Of a stretch of 21,132 bases of DNA, positions 2,908 to 21,132 are shown piece by piece. Below the pieces are notes generated by a model. It saw nothing but the letters and a program-made list of their open reading frames with translations. It did no database searches and was not told where the DNA came from. Source of the DNA: a virus; IMG/VR virus record IMGVR_UViG_3300009450_000006, positions 1 through 21,132 of that record. One strand, 5' to 3'. Position 1 is the stretch's first letter. Every line of letters begins with the position of its first letter. A program made the translations under genes and the position numbers.

Positions 2908-4635
2908 TTAAAATTCACCCGTTATTCTTATTGTCCTTTCGCCAAAATTGGCAATGATTGTATTGATTTTGCCCAACACCGTTGTGCCGTATGGAGTCTG
3001 CATCCGCACCGTTCTATTTACCGATAGATTGCGAACCATTGCGCAGTCCATCTTCGCTTCTATTTCGTAATCCCAGAAGCGGTATGGGTTCTGGGTTGGG
3101 TCGTTGATGATGTGAAAATCTTTGTAAATATTCGATGTATTCTGTACTACGTTGTCTTTGTACGAAATAACATATCTCGGATTGAACTGCCTGAACGCGG
3201 TCTGAATATTTTGACCCGTTGATTTATTAAACAAAACAATGTTCTCAAACCTTGCACGTGCTGATGTCAGTGATTGCGTATCCCATTCATAGTATTTAGG
3301 TATGGCAAACTCGTCTTTTTGAATTACGGGTAAATCCAAATTGGCACGCCACGCACTACCCCAAATTATTTGAAACAGCCCTGACAATACACCCTGATTA
3401 ATTCTATTCAGCGTTGATGGTGGATTTTGGTCATTACCAAACCTAACAGGTGCGTAATTTAAATTTACATCCTTCATTTCACGCCATGCTTCATACCCTG
3501 CTGGTTGGCTGTAAATCTTGATGTAGTCGAACGTTGCAGAATACAATTCAACACTATTACTACCGCACCCCTCGGACATATCATCTGCAACCCTGATACG
3601 CTGACCTGCATTTAATTTGCCCTCGTTGTATTTGAAGCAAACACCATTGAGTATATTGCCTTTCTTAGATTCAGCTATTGCATCAAGTAATACGGGCGCG
3701 CTCAAGTAATAATCTTCTCGCTCCATTTTTAATTGTCCGTTTTCAATCCACCATTTCGCATTAAAATTATTTGCGACCTTGTTTAGAAATTCAGTTATGG
3801 TTTCACGCGGTCTATTCTCAACAATGTAGCGTGGTGGGTTACGAAGTCCCGGCTTTATTGGTGCGTAAAAATAAAGTGTAGATGTATAGAATGAATTTGG
3901 GTCTGACAGGAACGAACTCCAAAATGATGGCTGTCCTGTACATCCACAATACGCTGATGCTTGTTCAATGTAATCTACAATACGAGGACTAGGGTGCTTG
4001 CGTCCGCAACCAAATATAATCTCTTGCAAATATGTAGATAGTGCCGTAACGGGATTGTTATTGCCCACTATTGCGCCAATTATCTGACCAAGTATTCCCA
4101 CTACCCAAAATAGTAGCGTTGCCGTTACCATTACGATATCAACCAAGAATCCCGGCTTGGTATCATTGCAGTATTCAATTGCGGGAATGTTTATACCGCT
4201 ATTATTATTTACAAGCCAATGATTAGGGTTAAATGAACCATCTGGATTTTCCAAATCTGTTGTAATTGGCGTACGTTTGAAACACTCGTAAATACGCTCG
4301 TCCGCATCCTCCCTCGTCATGCGTGCCGTAACGAAACAATCGCCTGTGCAGTAATCGACACTATCGCCTTTAATTACGAAATCCTGATACACGAAATCAT
4401 TACAGCACTCATCCCAAATTTGAACTTTAATAAACCGGTATAGTCCCTGCTGGCTTGCAACGAGGGTGTTAAATATCAAATCGAAGCCATCGTCAAAGAA
4501 CTTCAATTCGTTGGTGTATGCCTTCTGAGTTGCGCCCGTTTGTTCATCACGACTATACGTCACACTGAATGACTCCAAGCCATCTATACGCCCTCTAATT
4601 GGTGTGCCGTTTAATCTTACTTGAAGTGTACTCAT
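2908..4635 (-). CDS. Putative phage tail protein (575 aa, cysteine-rich N-terminal half, one hydrophobic segment)
   Basis: The ATG at 4635-4633 overlaps the tape measure stop as ATGA, so translation is probably coupled. Position directly after the tape measure gene suggests a distal-tail, baseplate or tail-hub protein, but I recognise no named family in it. Residues 1-120 look like a beta-rich domain (for example FFDDGFDLIFNTL and QDFVIKGDSVDY) and carry several cysteines: C77, C78, C96, C100 and C118. Residues 162-190 are strongly hydrophobic (core FLVDIVMVTATLLFWVVGILG), long enough to cross a membrane. Residues about 265-320 (RYIVENRPRETITEFLNKVANNF..WWIENGQLKMER) resemble the hub-like domains of tail proteins that read out a stored variable. 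The hydrophobic stretch may act during genome entry; that is inference. Confidence 0.75.
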   Translation of the reverse strand: MSTLQVRLNGTPIRGRIDGLESFSVTYSRDEQTGATQKAYTNELKFFDDGFDLIFNTLVASQQGLYRFIKVQIWDECCNDFVYQDFVIKGDSVDYCTGDCFVTARMTREDADERIYECFKRTPITTDLENPDGSFNPNHWLVNNNSGINIPAIEYCNDTKPGFLVDIVMVTATLLFWVVGILGQIIGAIVGNNNPVTALSTYLQEIIFGCGRKHPSPRIVDYIEQASAYCGCTGQPSFWSSFLSDPNSFYTSTLYFYAPIKPGLRNPPRYIVENRPRETITEFLNKVANNFNAKWWIENGQLKMEREDYYLSAPVLLDAIAESKKGNILNGVCFKYNEGKLNAGQRIRVADDMSEGCGSNSVELYSATFDYIKIYSQPAGYEAWREMKDVNLNYAPVRFGNDQNPPSTLNRINQGVLSGLFQIIWGSAWRANLDLPVIQKDEFAIPKYYEWDTQSLTSARARFENIVLFNKSTGQNIQTAFRQFNPRYVISYKDNVVQNTSNIYKDFHIINDPTQNPYRFWDYEIEAKMDCAMVRNLSVNRTVRMQTPYGTTVLGKINTIIANFGERTIRITGEF

Positions 4636-6935
4636 AGTCGGGTCTTTAATCGGCTCATGTTGGCATGGCTTCGGTCGGTAATTACTGCGATGCCGTTGTG
4701 GTCAATTCGCACATCGGTATGCGGTATGTATTTAGCAATTGATTTGCCTAATAAGTTGTAATCAATCTCACTGCTTTGCTGGCTTGAATAAACTCCCCCT
4801 GTTGCAAGTTTGGCAATGAAGCCTGCTTCCTTATCGGATATTTTGCGATCGTGTGCCAAGTCCATTAATGCACTATATCCGGGCTGGCTATTGATGTCTT
4901 CCGGTACAACACGCTCATTAGGTGTGAGGATGGCATGAACTGAATCCTTGCCACGAACAGCACCTCTTACCATTGGCACTTTCTTCGCTCCCTTGTTGTA
5001 CGGAATGGGTGTGGCAAGTACGATACCTGCTTGAGCCGCACCAAGAGCGGCAATGACGGGCGCAAGTGGCAAGCCCAGTACCGAACCCGATGCAGATGTA
5101 ACGCCTTGCGCAGTGTTCAGTGCGATGTTAAATAGTGCACCCGCCTTGTCTAATACGGCTTGTCTGCGCTTAATCTTACGCAATGACTGCTCGTATTGCT
5201 CCTGACTAATTATACCCTTCTCTAATTGCTCTTGCAGTTGGTTGGTTTGGCTGATGGTATAGGCGTTGTTTAGGGCGTTCAACGTATCAAGTGTCATGTC
5301 GGTAGCGAATACCCTTGACTGCGCCTCTGTCCAAACGGCTTTGGTTCTTTCCTTGCCGTAATTCTTTTCGTATTCCGTTATTTCAGCCTCGACTTTGCGC
5401 ACATCTTTGCCGAACTGCTCGTATAATTCGAGGCGTTTACGCAAATAATCCTCCTCTGTTATTTCACCATACTTGTGTCGCTCATCTAATGCTTGCTCGT
5501 TGGCTTTAAATATTTCATCGAGCATTTTATTCTCGGCCTTCAATCGCTTGTCCTCTATGTCGGCATCAAATGTTGCTTCGGCTATTTGATAATCGAATGG
5601 GTCGGTTGCAGATAGTTGGGTGGCTTGAAGTAAACGGTCTAATTCGAGTTCGTTTAGGCGTTCACGTTCTTTTCGAAGTGCCTCGATTGCACGTAATTCC
5701 TCTTTGGTTAATTTAGTATTCCCTGCTTGAACAATGCCAGTATCTTTAAGCGCATTAATTGAATCGAGTAATATATCACGAGTTGCACGCTTTAATTCTA
5801 ATTCACGTACGCTTTGTTCTGTAATTACAATACCCCCTCCAAATAGTTTCTTTTGACTTGCCTGTATTCGCCTGTCGCCCTCTTCAACCTCTTCAACGTA
5901 TTTGTTATAAGATGCAGTTAATTCTTGATTAATTTCATCCTCTGTCAGCCCAGCCTTTCTTAATGTTTCAATTCTCTTTTGGATTTGAGCATCAATTCGT
6001 TTGCCTTGCTCGTCTAATTGAGATGCACGTTCTGCATTAATTACGGCTTGCTGGTATTCAGCCCACTGACCCGTAAGCATTGCAACGGATGCGGATAGTC
6101 CTTCAATGCCATATGTCAGTAATGATATAGATGCTTCAATAGCACCTGTACGCCCTACGGTTTCAAGAAGTTCATCCCACTTATTGCCCATGCGTGCAAT
6201 TTCGGCAGATAGGCTCGTTGCCATTTTCTGTGCATTCGCCCCAAATGTATTCTCCATCTCTTTGGCAAATTTCGGTAAAACCTCTGATGCGATGAGTTCA
6301 CCACGCTCCATCATTTTACCTAATTCGGCGGTTGATACATTTAATGATTTTGCCATTATGCCCACAGCCGATGGAAGAGCCTCTGCCAATTGCCCCCTGA
6401 GCTCTTCTGCCATGATAGAATTTTTGCTAATCATTTGCGTAAGTGCCGTAAATGCACGCCTCGATTGTTCTGCACTTGCCCCACTGCCTTTGATTGCAAT
6501 GGTCATTGATTTAAATACCTTCTCCGCCTTGCCTATCTCCATTCCTGATGCCTTTGCGCCACCTACAAATGCGGTGTAACTACCTGCAAGCTCTTTGAAC
6601 TCTATCCCTAATTGATTTGCTGTTTGTCGCAGGTCTTCCATTGCCCTGTTGCCCGCTTCCTGACCGCCTTTAATATCTGCAATTCGGGTAGTAAGCGATT
6701 CTATTTCAGCACGAGTTTTAGCTACCTCTTTACCAAATGCTATAAGAGAACTCACCGCAAATGCCCCCGCCACCATTCCACCAATATTACCCAATGCCTT
6801 TTGAAATTGTCCTACTTCGTGAGTGGCTTGTTTGGTTTTCTTATTTACATTATCGACCTCAACACCAGTCTTTTTCAGTCCTTCATCAAATCCTGACGTG
6901 TCTGCGGTGATTTTAAATACTATATTCTGAGGCAT
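4632..6935 (-). CDS. Tail tape measure protein
   Basis: At 767 aa this protein sets tail length and is expected to line the tail lumen until DNA ejection. Residues about 60-270 match the conserved N-terminal domain of tape measure proteins: the segment with 'AFTALTQMISKNSIMAEEL', then RGQLAEALP, then ELGKMMERGEL and SEVLPKFAKEM. A long charged helical part with repeated E/K/R heptads follows (about 300-590), then a hydrophobic region at about 600-645. The C-terminus carries a 'GKDSVHAILTPNERVVP' segment, a motif common at tape measure C-termini. At about 1.5 angstrom per residue, a tail of very roughly 110 nm is implied (general rule, not measured). The gene lies 77 nt after the chaperone extension and overlaps the next gene by 4 nt. 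Confidence 0.93.
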   Translation of the reverse strand: MPQNIVFKITADTSGFDEGLKKTGVEVDNVNKKTKQATHEVGQFQKALGNIGGMVAGAFAVSSLIAFGKEVAKTRAEIESLTTRIADIKGGQEAGNRAMEDLRQTANQLGIEFKELAGSYTAFVGGAKASGMEIGKAEKVFKSMTIAIKGSGASAEQSRRAFTALTQMISKNSIMAEELRGQLAEALPSAVGIMAKSLNVSTAELGKMMERGELIASEVLPKFAKEMENTFGANAQKMATSLSAEIARMGNKWDELLETVGRTGAIEASISLLTYGIEGLSASVAMLTGQWAEYQQAVINAERASQLDEQGKRIDAQIQKRIETLRKAGLTEDEINQELTASYNKYVEEVEEGDRRIQASQKKLFGGGIVITEQSVRELELKRATRDILLDSINALKDTGIVQAGNTKLTKEELRAIEALRKERERLNELELDRLLQATQLSATDPFDYQIAEATFDADIEDKRLKAENKMLDEIFKANEQALDERHKYGEITEEDYLRKRLELYEQFGKDVRKVEAEITEYEKNYGKERTKAVWTEAQSRVFATDMTLDTLNALNNAYTISQTNQLQEQLEKGIISQEQYEQSLRKIKRRQAVLDKAGALFNIALNTAQGVTSASGSVLGLPLAPVIAALGAAQAGIVLATPIPYNKGAKKVPMVRGAVRGKDSVHAILTPNERVVPEDINSQPGYSALMDLAHDRKISDKEAGFIAKLATGGVYSSQQSSEIDYNLLGKSIAKYIPHTDVRIDHNGIAVITDRSHANMSRLKTRL

Positions 6936-7012: not shown

Positions 7013-7339
7013 CTATTTCGCTTGGGTGCTTTGATGCTTTAAATGTATGTCATATCGATACGTATCGAGAATCGCTCCGTACTCGTCTATGCCCTTCTTG
7101 AGTAGTAGGTCGGTTTCACTTATCACGCCCTTGGTAATCTGTGCGTGCATCCAATTTATACTGCGTAACTCGTTCATGTATTCATCAGCCCAGTTTCGTG
7201 TAATGGAAAGATACTCTTTTGGTTTTCGCTCAATTCCATCAAATGTCTTTGTAGGATATGCATACGGATAACATCGTCTGAGATGTCCGACAATTCGATG
7301 ATATAGCGTACTGCTTTCACGATAAAAAAAAACCGACAA
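7013..7339 (-). CDS. -1 frame extension of the tail assembly chaperone (gpGT-like)
   Basis: This frame is open from at least 7339 to a TAG at 7015-7013 and overlaps the 176-aa chaperone frame by 166 nt, in the -1 register. The only start at its 5' end is a TTG inside the upstream gene, with no separate leader. It ends 77 nt before the tape measure gene. This is the arrangement of lambda G/GT and many other long-tailed phages, where a -1 shift near the end of the first frame makes a longer chaperone. The part that looks most like real protein begins near 'EYLSITRNWADEYMNEL'. A shift anywhere in the overlap gives a fusion of about 230 aa. It would act with the shorter form in recruiting tail tube subunits to the tape measure protein (family knowledge). 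A single-base assembly error is the main alternative. Confidence 0.65.
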   Translation of the reverse strand: MSVFFYRESSTLYHRIVGHLRRCYPYAYPTKTFDGIERKPKEYLSITRNWADEYMNELRSINWMHAQITKGVISETDLLLKKGIDEYGAILDTYRYDIHLKHQSTQAK

Positions 7340-7704
7340 TCTTCATCCTCTTGCCATATTTGAATCTTGCGTGCGTTTAGGCTCGGCTTGTAATTGTGCG
7401 GGTCTTCTTCCGGTAGCAATGCAAATACGCAGGCAATATCGACCAATAAAGCCTCGTCTGGAATGTCTGCCACTCGCTTCTTTAATTGGTCGAATTTCGA
7501 ATAGGCATCAATAATTTTACCCGTATTCAGGTCGGCTTCGATTTCTTCAAATGCCTTGACAAGTCGTGTCCCTGTCAATCCCATTGATGCCCGATTTACG
7601 GCAAGGTCAGCAGGTATAACTCGTTCGGCTGGTACGTTCAACCAATCGGTAATCATTGACCACGATGTGCCGTCTTTGGATGTGTAGATGTTGGGGGTTA
7701 TCAT
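7174..7704 (-). CDS. Tail assembly chaperone, 0-frame product (gpG-like)
   Basis: This 176-aa product starts with the ATG at 7704-7702, overlapping the stop of the 69-aa gene as ATGA. The sequence is mixed alpha with no recognised catalytic motif. A charged helical middle (residues about 45-85) and a downstream helical part ending 'HLMELSENQKSIF' can be seen. The assignment as tail assembly chaperone rests on its place just before the tape measure gene, its size, and the long -1 overlapping frame. In other phages the short form is made in excess over the frameshifted form. An N-terminal fragment of this same gene (first 13 codons, one residue different) occurs again at 8031-8069. Confidence 0.65.
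   Translation of the reverse strand: MITPNIYTSKDGTSWSMITDWLNVPAERVIPADLAVNRASMGLTGTRLVKAFEEIEADLNTGKIIDAYSKFDQLKKRVADIPDEALLVDIACVFALLPEEDPHNYKPSLNARKIQIWQEDEDCRFFFIVKAVRYIIELSDISDDVIRMHILQRHLMELSENQKSIFPLHETGLMNT
7216..7227 (-). promoter_or_regulatory. Candidate late -1 slip site GAA AAC CAA AAG
   Basis: In the chaperone 0 frame the minus strand reads GAA AAC CAA AAG. A slip of -1 on AAG (codon 163) continues as GAG TAT CTT (E-Y-L), joining '..MELSENQK' to 'EYLSITRNWADEY..'. This is not a perfect X-XXY-YYZ heptamer. However, both frames look protein-like on their respective sides of this point, which the T9 site does not achieve. Confidence 0.35.
7324..7332 (-). promoter_or_regulatory. Candidate slippery run of nine T (UUUUUUU) in the chaperone gene
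   Basis: The minus strand reads CGG TTT TTT TTT ATC in the 0 frame (codons 125-127 are Phe-Phe-Phe). A -1 slip gives TTT TTT TTT TAT CGT. It fits the X-XXY-YYZ rule exactly and sits near the 5' end of the overlap. The 0 frame beyond it still looks like real protein for about 35 residues, so use of this site is less certain than its sequence suggests. A nine-base homopolymer is also where indel errors are common. Confidence 0.4.
7666..7704 (-). repeat. Copy 1 of 39-bp direct repeat: start of the chaperone gene
   Basis: This is the first 13 codons of the chaperone gene. It matches 8031-8069 at 38 of 39 positions; the single change (7675 versus 8040) turns Lys into Asn. In both copies the ATG overlaps the stop of an upstream small gene as ATGA. 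Confidence 0.9.
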
Positions 7705-7910
7705 TCTGCGATTATTTTATAAACTTCAATTAGTTGCTTTGAGTAGTATTTACCCGCCTCTAATTGGGTATGCTTTCCATCACCAATATGCAATAGTCGC
7801 TCTGGTTCGCCCATCGAATGCATTTTAATTTCAGTTATAATTGCACCTAAAAAAGATGCAACCTCTTCATGGTTTTTACCATCGTAAAAAATTTTGTCTT
7901 GATTTTCCAT
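7701..7910 (-). CDS. Hypothetical protein, 69 aa (cassette B between TerL and chaperone)
   Basis: A small acidic-to-neutral protein that I do not recognise. It starts MENQDKIFYDGKNHEEV, contains a helix SFLGAIITEIKMHSM and a turn ERLLHIGDGKHTQL, and ends in another helix (KQLIEVYKIIAE). The ATG at 7910 follows a TTTAACAATC leader shared with the 86-aa gene upstream. The stop overlaps the chaperone ATG by 4 nt. Its surroundings (a TerL-end sequence before it, chaperone start after it) duplicate those of the 86-aa gene, although the two proteins show no visible similarity. It therefore looks like an alternative occupant of the same slot. A head-tail connector or minor accessory role would fit the position, but nothing in the sequence proves it. 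Confidence 0.6.
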   Translation of the reverse strand: MENQDKIFYDGKNHEEVASFLGAIITEIKMHSMGEPERLLHIGDGKHTQLEAGKYYSKQLIEVYKIIAE

Positions 7911-8026
7911 GATTGTTAAATGTTTAATTATTACACATCAGCAAACTTACCCAATTTAGCGAACCTATCCAAATATTGGCGGTGAAATGTCCATAGGTAA
8001 TATTCGAGGCAGTCGAATAAGTGGCC
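7908..8026 (-). repeat. Copy 2 of 119-bp direct repeat: duplicated 3' end of TerL plus leader
   Basis: This stretch matches 8324-8442 at 109 of 119 positions with no gaps and a constant offset of 416 bp. On the minus strand it encodes the last 31 residues and stop of the terminase (GHLFDCLEYYLW..KFADV). Across these 32 codons the six differences from the intact gene are all synonymous (five third-position, one first-position Leu change). The remaining differences lie in the short leader. The copy therefore diverged as working coding sequence before it was joined here. Confidence 0.92.
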
Positions 8027-8069
8027 AATTTGTGCCGTCATTGGATGTGTAGATGTTGGGGGTTATCAT
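7965..8069 (-). pseudogene. Chimeric remnant: chaperone start fused to out-of-frame TerL end
   Basis: The ATG at 8069 overlaps the stop of the 86-aa gene as ATGA and begins MITPNIYTSNDGT, the N-terminus of the chaperone. After codon 13 the sequence joins, through AATT at 8027-8030, to a copy of the TerL 3' end read in another frame, and stops at TAG 7967-7965 after 34 codons. It is a recombination scar rather than a functional gene. If translated it would make a 34-aa peptide and could carry ribosomes toward the 69-aa gene. Confidence 0.8.
8031..8069 (-). repeat. Copy 2 of 39-bp direct repeat: duplicated start of the chaperone gene
   Basis: Matches 7666-7704 with one mismatch, offset 365 bp. 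Together with the 119-bp repeats it shows that the unit 'TerL end - small gene - chaperone start' is present twice in tandem with different small genes. Confidence 0.9.
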
Positions 8070-8326
8070 GAATGAATTTTGGTTAAATTATTATACCTTA
8101 CCATTACATCAACGCCTCTCGATTTAACCCATGCCATTTTGCATGATTTGCAAATAGATGATAGTTTGTAAATTCGATTGGCTGACAAGGCGCAAATAGC
8201 CCTGATATAATCGGCATTTAATTTCATTTCACTGCCCCTTTCTAAATAATCTTTAAGTATTTTGTCAATGCTAATAATCTGAACCTTGTCATGTCGTGCA
8301 AGGGTTGACTCTGGTTTTTTTATCAT
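8066..8326 (-). CDS. Hypothetical protein, 86 aa (cassette A between TerL and chaperone)
   Basis: A basic small protein that I do not recognise, starting MIKKPESTLARHDKVQII. It contains a charged helix (IDKILKDYLERGSEMKL), a helix ADYIRAICALSANRIYKL and a CKSC pair near residue 60 followed by a basic segment. Two cysteines alone do not make a zinc site. It starts 20 nt after the TerL stop behind a leader ending in ACAATC, and its stop overlaps the ATG of the truncated chaperone copy as ATGA. This is exactly the junction that the 69-aa gene makes with the intact chaperone. It is most simply the alternative gene for the same slot, perhaps from a sibling phage. Confidence 0.6.
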   Translation of the reverse strand: MIKKPESTLARHDKVQIISIDKILKDYLERGSEMKLNADYIRAICALSANRIYKLSSICKSCKMAWVKSRGVDVMVRYNNLTKIHS

Positions 8327-8442
8327 GATTGTTTTTGGTTTAATTATTACACATCAGCAAACTTACCCAATTTCGCAAATCTATCCAAATATTGGCGGTG
8401 AAATGTCCACAAGTAATATTCGAGGCAATCGAATAAGTGGCC
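8324..8442 (-). repeat. Copy 1 of 119-bp direct repeat: 3' end of intact TerL plus leader
   Basis: This is the partner of 7908-8026. It spans the last 31 codons and stop of the intact terminase gene and the leader of the 86-aa gene. Recombination between the two copies would delete 416 bp, including the 86-aa gene, and leave TerL intact. Confidence 0.9.
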
Positions 8443-9675
8443 TGTCAAATTATCCGGTGGCTTTTTCTCCGCATTGTCACCACGCTGGACGAGTTCCAAA
8501 TCTTGTATGAGGTATTTGCACTTGTTGCTTATTTGAATGTCGCCATGTTTGGACAGGATGGAATTAAGTAATACGATGTAATCCACTGAGTGCGGATTGG
8601 CCGAAAGTAATCGTATCTGACCATCGGATAATTTTAAATAGCCTTTAATTAGTTTCCAATTAGTCATACCCTTTTGGTGGGCAGTCCGATTCCTTCCGCT
8701 TGCATCGCCCGTAAATATCAACCTGTGGTGGTTCGGGTAGCGTGTGCTTATGCGCTGGCACAACTCCGATACGTCCGAGTTAATCAGCCTCTCTTCGCCT
8801 ATGATGCGTATCGTCTTGCGGTCGGGCGTGTGCTGGGCATAGACGCACGTCATTGGCGACACGTTGAAGTCGATACTAACGTAAACAGGCAAATGCGCAA
8901 ACTCAGCGAAATCGGCTACGTGCGCCTTGCGGGTGAACGCATAGGCATAAATTGAACTCTGTGCCGTTATGAGATGCGCCAACACTTCACGCTTGAAGGT
9001 CTGCGGGTCGAGGGTGGCTTCTAATTGCTCGATGTAGCCATCAGGCAGGTTGTGTTTATTTACGTAAGATTCAGCCTGAACAATGGCAATTCGATTTGAT
9101 TCGGTTTGGCTTGCTTCCTTGAGTTCGAGGTAATACTTGACGTTATCGGGTGGGGTGGTGGCGGTTAGGATTTTGTGAGTTAATCCAAGTCGCTTGAATG
9201 TCTGTCCACGAAGCCTTGCACGCAGACGACCTAATGCAAATTCAAAGTTTCGAATGTCACGAGTTTCATCGCATACGATCGCATCCCACTCAGAACCGTT
9301 TACGGTGTTGTAATTGTCCAAACTGGTTAGTACGCCATAGCTTCCCCAACGAAATGTTATGACGTTCTCTGAGCCAATCCGGCTGTATGGCTTGACGCCT
9401 TTCATCTGCTTGTTAATGACGTAATCAACATCAGGACGCAATCCCATTTGCGCCCATGCCGATTCAATGCCGGGCAGTGTAGCTGTCTTCATCATCGGTA
9501 CGGTGGGAGCGCAGATAAGCACCCTTGCGTTTGGTACGGACAGGAATGGAATCGACGCCATGCCAAGCATGAATGTTTTACCCACGCCCACGCCTGTCAC
9601 CATGTGCACCTCCTTCGTGTCGGTGTGGTGAAGGAGGTAGTATGCTTGTTGTTGTGCTTCGTTGAGTTCGGGCAT
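8347..9675 (-). CDS. terL: Terminase large subunit
   Basis: This is the ATPase and nuclease that drives DNA into the prohead and cuts the concatemer. Numbering from the chosen start: Walker A TGVGVGKT at residues 27-34 and Walker B AIVCDE at about 132-137. The C-terminal RNase H-like nuclease has acidic residues in VSIDFNVSP (D269), FTGDASG (D324) and HLFDCLEY (D416). At 442 aa it is a normal length. I chose the ATG at 9675 because it overlaps the stop of the 66-aa gene as TGATG, in line with the coupled junctions elsewhere in this operon. An ATG at 9696 would add seven residues (MDCIESL) and overlap more. The 3' end is duplicated at 7922-8026. Confidence 0.95.
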   Translation of the reverse strand: MPELNEAQQQAYYLLHHTDTKEVHMVTGVGVGKTFMLGMASIPFLSVPNARVLICAPTVPMMKTATLPGIESAWAQMGLRPDVDYVINKQMKGVKPYSRIGSENVITFRWGSYGVLTSLDNYNTVNGSEWDAIVCDETRDIRNFEFALGRLRARLRGQTFKRLGLTHKILTATTPPDNVKYYLELKEASQTESNRIAIVQAESYVNKHNLPDGYIEQLEATLDPQTFKREVLAHLITAQSSIYAYAFTRKAHVADFAEFAHLPVYVSIDFNVSPMTCVYAQHTPDRKTIRIIGEERLINSDVSELCQRISTRYPNHHRLIFTGDASGRNRTAHQKGMTNWKLIKGYLKLSDGQIRLLSANPHSVDYIVLLNSILSKHGDIQISNKCKYLIQDLELVQRGDNAEKKPPDNLTGHLFDCLEYYLWTFHRQYLDRFAKLGKFADV

Positions 9676-9875
9676 CAGTGATTCGATGCAATCCAATCAT
9701 CGCAACTTGCGACACGTGCGTACACGTTGCCTGCACCTTTCGATAACGAGAATGTTGAATTGGTTACGGGGTCGTGCTTGGTAACGATTATTTGCACCGT
9801 ATCGCACATCTCCATGAGTTCCGATACCTTGCGGTCGATCATGGATTCAATTATGTCTTTTTCCGGTTTGGTCAT
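9675..9875 (-). CDS. Hypothetical protein, 66 aa, between TerS and TerL
   Basis: A small protein I cannot name. It has an N-terminal helix with heptad-like spacing (DIIESMIDRKVSELMEM) and a beta-rich C-terminal half (TVQIIVTKHDP, then NSTFSLSKGAGNVYARV). It overlaps TerS by 4 nt (ATGA at 9872-9875) and TerL by 1 nt. Tight placement between the two terminase genes suggests co-production with the packaging motor, but no activity can be read from it. Confidence 0.65.
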   Translation of the reverse strand: MTKPEKDIIESMIDRKVSELMEMCDTVQIIVTKHDPVTNSTFSLSKGAGNVYARVASCDDWIASNH

Positions 9876-10282
9876 TTCTTGAGTTTGTCAATTGCTTCCT
9901 GCGATATGTTTACGGTGATGTTGGGCGGTTGGTAGGCTTCGTCCTGTTTCGATTCGACTTCAATGCGTTCACCGTAATGTCGTGGTGCTTTTTTCGATGC
10001 ACGCCATTTATAAAATTGAGCCAATTCACGCGCCCTTGTAATTTCAGCCATTGTGCCTTCCGCATCGATTAGGACTTGTTCGGCTTTATCGGAATCGGTA
10101 TCAGCACTTAATTGACGTGCCTCTTTGATACGCGCGGAATGTTCGGGAAGGTGGATGAAATCAAAGAAAACGGTCAAACTCATGCCGTATTTGCTTGCCA
10201 TTTCCCTATAACTCATTGAGTTAAGAATATCCTCGATTACTTCGGCTATATCAGGACGCGGTATTTTAATAGGCTTTGCCAT
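9872..10282 (-). CDS. terS: Terminase small subunit
   Basis: 136 aa, expected to bind the packaging site and hand DNA to TerL. Residues about 18-45 (SMSYREMASKYGMSLTVFF) form a helix-turn-helix-like segment. The later part carries AQFYKWRASKKAPRHYGER, a signature of phage small terminases in which a Y-x-W-R-A-S-K segment precedes 'P-x-x-Y-G'. The C-terminus is helical and basic (SQEAIDKLKK). It is the first gene of the leftward operon, and its stop overlaps the 66-aa gene start by 4 nt. A perfect 12-bp palindrome ends 2 nt upstream of its ATG, so transcription or translation may be controlled there. Confidence 0.82.
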   Translation of the reverse strand: MAKPIKIPRPDIAEVIEDILNSMSYREMASKYGMSLTVFFDFIHLPEHSARIKEARQLSADTDSDKAEQVLIDAEGTMAEITRARELAQFYKWRASKKAPRHYGERIEVESKQDEAYQPPNITVNISQEAIDKLKK

Positions 10283-18670: not shown

Positions 18671-19168
18671 ATGACAACACACTGGAAGAAATTAACCAAC
18701 CCGGATTATTTTGGAAGCCACGACCTCTTCGTGGACGACAACAAGTACAGCGAGGCTATTGTCACGCTGGTAAAGGTCGAGAAGAAAAAGGTCAAAGGCG
18801 CAGATGGCAAGGATTCTGATTGCATCGTAGCGACAACATCAGAAACGAAGCCGATCATCCTGAACAAGACGAACTGCAAGACAATTACGAGGCTGTTTCA
18901 AACGCCTGCTATCGAGAAATGGGCAGGCCGGAAGGTAAAGATAGGCGTTGATAATGTGAAGGCATTTGGCGACATGACCGATGCCTTACGAGTTCGCAAC
19001 GAAGTCATATCGGACGCGCCGAAGCCAACGTATGAAGCCGAGATGAAAGCCATATCGGATGCAAAAGACCTGAACGAACTCAGCGCATTATGGAACGCAC
19101 TGGATGCAAACGGCAAGGCGGTATGCTTGACCGCAAAGGATAAACGTAAATCAGAATTAAGCAAATGA
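18671..19168 (+). CDS. Conserved phage protein of the recombination cluster, 165 aa
   Basis: I know proteins of this look (N-terminal 'HWKKLTNPDY.G..', then 'ILNKTNCKTI', then 'IEKWAGRKVKIGVDNVKAFG') from phage genomes, where they are mostly hypothetical and often close to YqaJ or RecT-type genes. Residues 1-115 appear beta-rich and could be an OB-like single-strand-binding domain. The C-terminal 45 residues are helical (YEAEMKAISDAKDLNELSALWNAL), reminiscent of tails on recombination accessory proteins. The stop overlaps the exonuclease ATG as ATGA at 19165-19168, so the two are made together. A single-strand-binding or exonuclease partner role is inference from these two facts. Confidence 0.65.
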   Translation: MTTHWKKLTNPDYFGSHDLFVDDNKYSEAIVTLVKVEKKKVKGADGKDSDCIVATTSETKPIILNKTNCKTITRLFQTPAIEKWAGRKVKIGVDNVKAFGDMTDALRVRNEVISDAPKPTYEAEMKAISDAKDLNELSALWNALDANGKAVCLTAKDKRKSELSK

Positions 19169-19785
19169 TAGAACACAAAGTAGAGCAAGGCACGCCAGAG
19201 TGGCACAAATTGCGAATAGGTAAAATTACCAGCAGTAGAGTAGCTGACATCATGAAGTCGGATAATTTGAAAGTGGTCGATGCGCTAATATACGAGCGCA
19301 GTTGCCCAGATGATGCGCTATGGGACGCACAGGACGGATATGTATCCGATGCGATGCAGTGGGGCACAGACCATGAAGATGAAGCGGTGCAGGTGTACAC
19401 AGCGCAGACAGGCATCGAGATGGAACGTGTCGGATTCTGCACGCACAAGGTATTTGATTACCTTGCGATGAGTCCAGACCGATTGACTCCAGACCGAACA
19501 GGCGCAGTTGAGGTGAAGTGCCCGAATACGAAGACTCACATTCGCACAATACGCATGGGTGGATTGCCCAACGAACACAAATATCAAGTGCTTCAATACT
19601 TCCTGATTAACGAGGATTTGCAGTGGCTTGACTTCGTATCTTATGACCCAAGATTCGCACCCAGACCGCTTTATATTCACCGCATCACACGTGCTGAAGT
19701 GCAGGCAGATTTGGGTGAACTATTGGCAAACATTGTCAAGTTTTGGGCGAAATTTGAAAAGTATTATCAACAAGTAACATTTTAA
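19165..19785 (+). CDS. YqaJ-type viral recombinase / exonuclease
   Basis: 206 aa. It chews one DNA strand to give 3' single-stranded ends for phage recombination, like lambda exonuclease of the same PD-(D/E)XK fold. Motifs: VEQGTPEWHKLRIGKITSSR (N-terminal family signature, residues 6-25), WGTDHEDEAVQ with E71, MSPDRL with D105, GAVEVKCP with E116 and K118, and YQVLQYFL with Q141 and Q144. This set (E, D, E-x-K, Q) is complete, so it should be active. It starts inside the stop of the 165-aa gene. No RecT or Erf single-strand annealing protein is visible in the window; the 165-aa or the coiled-coil protein could serve in that place. Confidence 0.9.
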   Translation: MIEHKVEQGTPEWHKLRIGKITSSRVADIMKSDNLKVVDALIYERSCPDDALWDAQDGYVSDAMQWGTDHEDEAVQVYTAQTGIEMERVGFCTHKVFDYLAMSPDRLTPDRTGAVEVKCPNTKTHIRTIRMGGLPNEHKYQVLQYFLINEDLQWLDFVSYDPRFAPRPLYIHRITRAEVQADLGELLANIVKFWAKFEKYYQQVTF

Positions 19786-19796
19786 ATTTAAATATC

Positions 19797-21053
19797 ATGA
19801 GCACAGAATTAATCCAAGTCATGCAAGAGTCACCACTTGCAGAAGAAAAAAAAGATGTGGTGAAAAGCCTACTTGCACCATTTTTCGCAAAAGCCGAGGA
19901 ATGGAAATCACAAGTGGATTCAATTGAAATCACCGACCCAAGCCAAACCGACAAAATGGCACTGGCGAAAACGGGCAGGCTTCAATTAAGGCGGTACAGA
20001 TTGGATGCCGAGAAGTTGATTAAGGAACAGCGTGAAATCGTAAAGGCGAGAATGGCAGATGATGTTCTAGAGGATAAAATGCTACTCCGAAGTGGTCAAA
20101 TGGTTGTGGCTGTATTTGACAATCTCGAAACCAAGTTAGAGCACAAAGAGAAGTTTGCAGAGCGTTGGGAGGCTGAACAGCGTGAAATTCGCAGAAAGGA
20201 AAGACTTGCTATTATTGCCGAATTTGGTGTAATTGAAGTGCCCGGGCTTGCTGACTTCCCACAGGACGCATTTGATGCGTACGTAACAGGATTGCGCGCC
20301 AAAAGAGATGCTGAAATCAAGGCAGAACAGGAAAGAATTGAGGCGGCACGTAAAGAGAATTTGCATAACGACCGCAAGTCAAGACTGGCAAAATACGAGG
20401 ATTTCATACCTGAGTTTAATTCGCTTAATTTTGGCGAAATGGATGAAGCCGAGTATATCAAAATCGGGACACAGGCTAAGGCAAAGAAAGACGAATACGA
20501 TGCCGAGCAGGCCAAAATTAAGGCTGAAAACGAGAGGTTTCAAAAAGAAGCGATTAAGGCACAGGAAAGGGCAAATCAAATTAAAGTGTTATCTGCTGAT
20601 AGGTTTAGAAAATTGCAATCACTTGGATTCACCTACCCTTTTGATGATTTAGGAGAAATGCCAGAACCCCATTTCAACCAAATGGCCCAAGAGCATTTAA
20701 AAGAATTTACAGCAAAAGAATTAAAAGCCGAAAAATTACGCAAAGAGAATGAAGCAATCCAGGCGAAATTGAAAGCCGAAGCCGATGCCAAATTAAAGGC
20801 AGAGCAAGAAAAGGAGGATGGATCGATGAAGGCTTATGGGGCGGAGTCGACGTTGCGATGCAACTTGCAACATGAGGGATTGCGGCGCACACGCATGGTG
20901 CTTGCTACTCGCTGGCGGCACCCCCTCACGTTGGATTGCACCCTCGACCCTGTGCCCTGCGGGGCGGCATGCCGCGGCGCTTGCGCGCGGGGCTTTTGCG
21001 CGGCCTCTCTACACCACACACCCACGCGCACACTCACCATACCTAGGGTCTAG
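19797..21053 (+). CDS. Long coiled-coil phage protein (DUF1351-like), C-terminal part replaced by foreign sequence
   Basis: ATG at 19797 behind an AT leader, 11 nt after the exonuclease stop. Residues 1 to about 340 are charged and strongly helical: MALAKTGRLQLRRYRLDAEKLIKEQRE near the start, then alternating E/K/R-A blocks (EAARKENLHNDRKSRLAKYEDF; KAKKDEYDAEQAKIKAENERF). Such proteins accompany recombination genes in many phages; DUF1351 is the nearest family I know, and the match is by appearance. From about residue 342 (position 20820) the frame enters 68% GC DNA and the protein becomes Cys/Arg/Thr/His-rich without coiled coil, up to TAG 21051-21053. The native end is therefore probably missing, and the last 77 residues are not part of this protein. 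Confidence 0.7.
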   Translation: MSTELIQVMQESPLAEEKKDVVKSLLAPFFAKAEEWKSQVDSIEITDPSQTDKMALAKTGRLQLRRYRLDAEKLIKEQREIVKARMADDVLEDKMLLRSGQMVVAVFDNLETKLEHKEKFAERWEAEQREIRRKERLAIIAEFGVIEVPGLADFPQDAFDAYVTGLRAKRDAEIKAEQERIEAARKENLHNDRKSRLAKYEDFIPEFNSLNFGEMDEAEYIKIGTQAKAKKDEYDAEQAKIKAENERFQKEAIKAQERANQIKVLSADRFRKLQSLGFTYPFDDLGEMPEPHFNQMAQEHLKEFTAKELKAEKLRKENEAIQAKLKAEADAKLKAEQEKEDGSMKAYGAESTLRCNLQHEGLRRTRMVLATRWRHPLTLDCTLDPVPCGAACRGACARGFCAASLHHTPTRTLTIPRV

Positions 21054-21132
21054 GGCCTTATAAAAAAACTTGTAAGACTTAAAAAGCCCCGCCTGCCCAG
21101 TGCATTAGGCTTGAGCGGTGCGTGCGGTGTGG
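20820..21132. other. GC-rich segment unlike the rest (probable chimera or foreign DNA)
   Basis: The last 313 bp change sharply in composition. Positions 20881-21060 are about 68% GC, whereas 20581-20640 are 35%. The segment holds the palindrome GCGGCATGCCGC at 20964-20975 and a CTAGGGTCTAGGG doublet near 21044. No phage gene or known mobile-element end is recognisable. Its position at the edge of the sequence suits a contig-end misassembly. Insertion of foreign DNA or a phage-host junction is possible. Confidence 0.6.

Follow-up and report, generated by a model that had tools for sequence, protein, structure and literature searches.

On the minus strand of the viral contig studied here, the 3′ end of the terminase large subunit (TerL) gene and the start of the following tail gene each occur twice, in a tandem that encloses two different small genes. 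The best explanation, which we hold with somewhat better than even confidence, is that a hypervariable slot lies behind a promoter-like element embedded in the TerL end, and that two sibling alleles of this slot were fused by illegitimate recombination. The initial annotation had already read the arrangement as two sibling alleles caught in tandem; the variability of the slot in relatives and the synonymous-only divergence of the TerL ends support this reading, although an assembly chimera remains a serious rival.

Layout of the tandem

In the window (the whole stretch analysed, 21,132 nt), the genes run on the minus strand in the order TerS (9872–10282), 66-aa gene, TerL (to 8347, with a probable ATG start at 9675), 86-aa gene, tail-gene stub, TerL-end copy, 69-aa gene, 176-aa gene and tape measure gene. 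The features of the tandem are as follows.

8347–9696, minus: intact TerL gene (phrog_2, E = 3.6e-20; Terminase_6N; relatives at 75–97%)
8319–8442, minus: TerL 3′ end and leader, repeat copy 1 (direct repeat and local alignment)
8358–8389, minus: promoter-like element TTTG-N20-TAAGTTTG, copy 1, inside TerL (sequence motif)
8320–8352, minus: leader repeat on the 5′ side of the 86-aa gene (34-nt imperfect repeat with 8063–8096)
8066–8326, minus: 86-aa slot gene, cassette 1 (ORF; codon score z 2.8)
8063–8096, minus: leader repeat on the 3′ side of the 86-aa gene, whose last codons are leader-like
8027–8069, minus: truncated start (43-nt stub) of the downstream putative tail chaperone gene (38/39 identical to 7666–7704)
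8022–8026, minus: join between the downstream-gene stub and the second TerL end (GGYCA microhomology)
7903–8026, minus: TerL 3′ end and leader, repeat copy 2, a headless TerL remnant (protein-level E = 1.8e-18; coding differences synonymous only)
7942–7973, minus: promoter-like element TTTG-N20-TAAGTTTG, copy 2 (sequence motif)
7701–7910, minus: 69-aa slot gene, cassette 2 (ORF; codon score z 3.4)
7174–7704, minus: downstream gene encoding 176 aa, intact; from its position, a putative tail assembly chaperone (56 related loci; adjoins the tape measure gene, 4632–6935)

A repeat search and local alignments bore out the gene order, the coordinates and the near-identity of the two TerL ends and the two tail-gene starts proposed in the initial annotation. 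One direct repeat (7903–8026 and 8319–8442) covers 124 nt at 90% identity with a spacing of 416 nt, and the other (7651–7704 and 8016–8069) covers 54 nt at 87% with a spacing of 365 nt. Local alignment reduced these to 119 nt at 92% (E = 1.7e-43) and 39 nt at 97% (E = 5e-12), similarities far above chance. Two refinements emerged: the join is best placed at 8022–8026 (GGCCA), and the first repeat also holds the promoter-like element and the leader. As had been proposed, the TGA stop of each small ORF overlaps the following ATG as ATGA, and the 86-aa and 69-aa proteins were unrelated to each other in blastp; their AlphaFold models reached pLDDT values of 44 and 52, respectively. The name “tail chaperone” for 7174–7704 is a putative one, taken from its position before the tape measure gene; the window protein gave no match to a Pfam or PHROG family. 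A further ORF (7013–7339) begins a second reading frame across the end of the 176-aa gene, an arrangement known from frameshift-made tail chaperones.

Removal of 416 bp in silico left TerL–69-aa gene–next gene and removal of 365 bp left TerL–86-aa gene–next gene, with TerL intact either way, as the initial annotation had anticipated in describing a collapse to the normal single-gene order.

The slot in relatives

Searches of viral contigs with TerL and the next gene yielded 57 distinct TerL/next-gene junctions, the window's own included. The slot was empty in 38 of the 57, most of which had the TerL TGA overlapping the next ATG as ATGA, and was filled in the other 19 with several unrelated genes. 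Besides the window's pair, these encoded proteins of 67 aa (5 contigs), 106 aa, 81 aa (7 contigs), 63 aa (two clades) and 178 aa, the last being an Rv2179c-like 3′–5′ exoribonuclease. The only other relative with two genes (L017) carried a 63-aa and an 81-aa cassette without repeats. The 81-aa gene followed TerL in one clade and preceded it in another, indicating that cassettes move between slots, and its pN was well below its pS; judged from these sequences, the cargo genes appear to be portable and under selection, and might benefit their carriers. Given its optional filling in relatives, the region that separates TerL from the tail gene appears to be a hypervariable cargo slot, of which the two genes in the window could well be alleles. 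The ancestral slot was most likely empty.

Neither of the window's own cargo genes was found elsewhere. The 86-aa protein had no relative in viral contigs, in 50 related records or in phages, and a search for relatives of the 69-aa protein likewise found none. Single-gene alleles holding only the 86-aa or only the 69-aa gene were absent from the junctions of related phages. Duplicated flanks occurred only in the window contig among the 57 junctions, and a scan for sibling leaders returned, among related phages, only the known L006 contig. The tandem is thus known from one contig, and the lack of a second join or of a single-gene allele counts against a fusion.

These results also bear on the suggestion that the repeats are retained as a means of changing, through deletion, from one cargo gene to the other. 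Direct repeats do flank the two cassettes and the 416- or 365-bp deletions would leave clean single-gene alleles, so that such switching is mechanically possible. However, no relative carries the tandem or either gene alone, and no recombinase was found among the slot genes; there is therefore no sign of a programmed switch. In addition, deletion is one-way and the repeats are imperfect (90%). We regard a programmed switch as very improbable.

The same uniqueness favours a different alternative, namely a chimera of assembly or library preparation in which scaffolding or amplification joined the contigs of two sibling strains, the first carrying the 86-aa gene and the second the 69-aa gene, so that no phage has both. 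The tandem is unique among the 57 junctions and its join is missing from other viral contigs; the fragments involved (about 43 and 113 nt) match k-mers or reads in size; and the contig ends in ca. 318 nt of foreign-looking DNA, with a GC content of up to 0.72 against about 0.43. In this end (20815–21132) the GC content rises abruptly to 55%–72%, beginning where homology to the record of L007 stops (20814), and the segment showed no homology to relatives and no match in phage or plasmid records. The GC jump and the loss of homology at the same position indicate that the contig probably has one chimeric end. On the other hand, the sequence shared at the tandem's join is only ca. 5 nt, too short for a path in a de Bruijn graph, and the stub extends 17 nt beyond the last exact match to the other strain's tail gene, so that the ends do not appear to be natural bubble ends. 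A chimera is accordingly a serious possibility, albeit a rather unlikely one.

Divergence of the copies and the join

The fusion of two sibling alleles, the reading that we prefer, draws on the pattern of differences between the copies. Within the coding part of the TerL ends there are six nucleotide differences in five codons, all synonymous (pS 0.35, pN 0); under codon-blind drift, an all-synonymous set would arise with a probability of between 4e-5 and 1e-3, according to how transitions are weighted. Nothing would confine a headless TerL copy to synonymous substitutions, so the divergence predates the join and took place in two functional genomes. The two copies agree at 90 of 96 positions, while each agrees with any relative at no more than 89 of 96, suggesting that the parents were siblings. 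The greater closeness of the copies to each other than to any relative would also be expected if the segment from TerL end through cassette to tail-gene start had been duplicated in tandem within one genome, after which one cassette was replaced and the copies drifted. The headless copy should then have drifted without regard to codons, yet all six differences are synonymous, including a two-step change from TTG to CTA (copy 2), and we consider duplication within one genome quite unlikely. The 45-nt tail-gene start behaves otherwise: the differences between its copies are mostly nonsynonymous, which counts against a fusion of sibling alleles, although this part of the gene is variable in relatives as well.

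At the join, the stub reads ACAAATTGG, like the tail genes of relatives, and then runs into CCACTTATTCG of TerL. GGTCA is present in relatives at both join sites, in the tail gene and in TerL, and this is the signature of a join at ca. 5 nt of microhomology. None of the other viral contigs searched carried the join sequence. In a mosaic breakpoint test along the window, the nearest relative was unchanged at the join and all relatives were about equally distant, so that the test neither supports nor refutes recombination. The presence of a YqaJ/RecE-type exonuclease in the phage counts in favour of the fusion.

Under this fusion, small genes would come and go in the slot, most keeping the ATGA overlap with the tail gene. 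The alleles TerL–86-aa gene–tail gene and TerL–69-aa gene–tail gene would have met, probably in a co-infected cell, where an illegitimate crossover at ca. 5 nt of microhomology could have joined the tail-gene start of one genome to the TerL end of the other. The product would keep TerL and the tail gene complete, once each, and carry the two cargo genes behind their own copies of promoter-like element and leader. An arrangement of this kind should not be stable: recombination between the repeats would be expected to reduce it to one cargo gene.

Promoter-like element, cassette entry and comparison with known systems

The promoter-like element, overlooked in the initial annotation, has the general form TTTG-N20-TAAsTTT and lies in the TerL 3′ end. 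Its synonymous sites are conserved: one Leu codon is TTG in all 41 distinct TerLs, Leu columns averaging 1.6 bits. The two further codons of GGTAAsTTT, GGT for Gly and TTT for Phe, are likewise fixed (41/41), and the Arg, Phe and Ala codons between the fixed codons vary. Equal conservation was reached in only 2 of 20,000 same-residue codon draws, and the N20 spacing was kept in all 57 TerLs checked. In Bacteroidota the −33/−7 consensus is TTTG/TAnnTTTG; the start site follows 4–5 nt downstream, and leaders average 33 nt (PMC6847099). The TerL element matches this consensus apart from a G at −9 in clade 1 and the final A in clade 2. The clade-1 −7 box reads TAAGTTTG, and its G at −9 is rare or disfavoured in Flavobacterium johnsoniae. 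In most clade-1 relatives, the predicted start lies ca. 22 nt before the first slot ATG. A phage of Bacteroidota would fit the gene content, which includes a BT4734-like primase domain; a host search with TerL in bacterial genomes gave no match. We infer from this sequence conservation that the TerL-end element acts as a promoter, which would make the slot gene the first gene of the tail transcript. Because the repeat copies carry both element and leader, each cargo gene has its own promoter-like copy and leader.

Short repeats of junction sequence often border the slot genes. The 34-nt imperfect leader repeat around the 86-aa gene had a local score of 23, reached in none of 2000 shuffles. The leader does not recur as a general motif in this genome. 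A CAATCATG repeat brackets the 67-aa slot gene, and a 15-nt repeat including the first codons of the next gene precedes the 178-aa gene (L025). TerL's own MPELN also opens two genes of the slot between TerS and TerL, one methyltransferase-like (L007) and one of 122 aa (L075). It is conceivable, if doubtful, that cargo slots are kept directly behind promoters embedded in structural-gene ends and that cassettes enter by duplicating promoter, leader or start codons. A newcomer would then take the native start while the old gene kept a copy; the window would represent an unresolved first product, and the 15-nt repeat in L025, the 34-nt repeat of the 86-aa gene and the MPELN starts in L007 and L075 would be resolved products. 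A general rule of “start capture” was considered but proved weak: the start match was at background level for many cassettes, and a general entry rule is therefore not established.

The TerS–TerL junction (9675–9875 in the window, where it holds the 66-aa gene) is a second hypervariable slot, also present upstream of TerL in L006, L007, L009, L014, L022, L067, L075 and L088. Its genes include DPPY-type methyltransferase-like genes with variable middles and genes for 122-aa, 128-aa and 83-aa proteins, and the TerS proteins are of several types. In L002, a start region of 62 nt (436–497 and 2258–2316, 76%) is common to the 67-aa slot gene and to a 92-aa gene lying before the 66-aa gene, as if starts were copied between slots. 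Short direct repeats (30–65 nt, 74%–93%, spacing 110–270 nt) also occur upstream of TerL in L009, L010, L014, L022 and L083.

Phage morons are single-gene insertions between conserved phage genes, and classical ones bring their own promoter and terminator. As with morons, an extra gene is present or absent between two conserved genes at the same junction in related phages (19 filled, 38 empty). In contrast to morons, the slot genes sit behind a resident promoter-like element and are ATGA-coupled to the next gene; the promoter-like element lies upstream, in the TerL end, and in most slot alleles the cassette runs up to or into the next start, so that a terminator would find no space. Site-specific or programmed switches also differ, as neither a slot recombinase nor an alternative form was found. 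The T4-type mobile PeSL regulatory cassettes (Arbiol et al. 2010, cited in PMC4503421) are similar in that small optional genes are swapped between conserved neighbours and repeated regulatory DNA at the borders provides homology for exchange. At the slot studied here, the promoter-like element is repeated, and leader and start-codon repeats border several cassettes. The element is, however, placed within the coding end of TerL, an Rfam search of the window, which gave no match, revealed no promoter/stem-loop unit, and the tandem is most likely made of two fused alleles in a phage of Bacteroidota type. Phage Rad52-like recombinases perform relaxed homologous recombination and produce homology-driven mosaics (PMC3945230). 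Such recombination could explain allele exchange between diverged phages with conserved flanks, the enzyme here being a YqaJ/RecE-like exonuclease, whereas the present join involves only ca. 5 nt of homology and leaves a duplication. The exonuclease gene (19165–19785) adjoins that of a phrog_21613 protein (18671–19168), and the two are a possible phage recombination pair. A literature search for phage tandem duplication by unequal exchange found nothing directly matching.

The feature is thus most likely a variant of known phage cargo-gene exchange, in the form of fused sibling alleles. If real, it is a snapshot of two slot alleles becoming a two-gene slot, a step that is usually erased. It would also provide a testable rule: if slots follow promoter-like elements concealed in the coding ends of structural genes, such elements could be used to predict the sites of small accessory genes in Bacteroidota phages.
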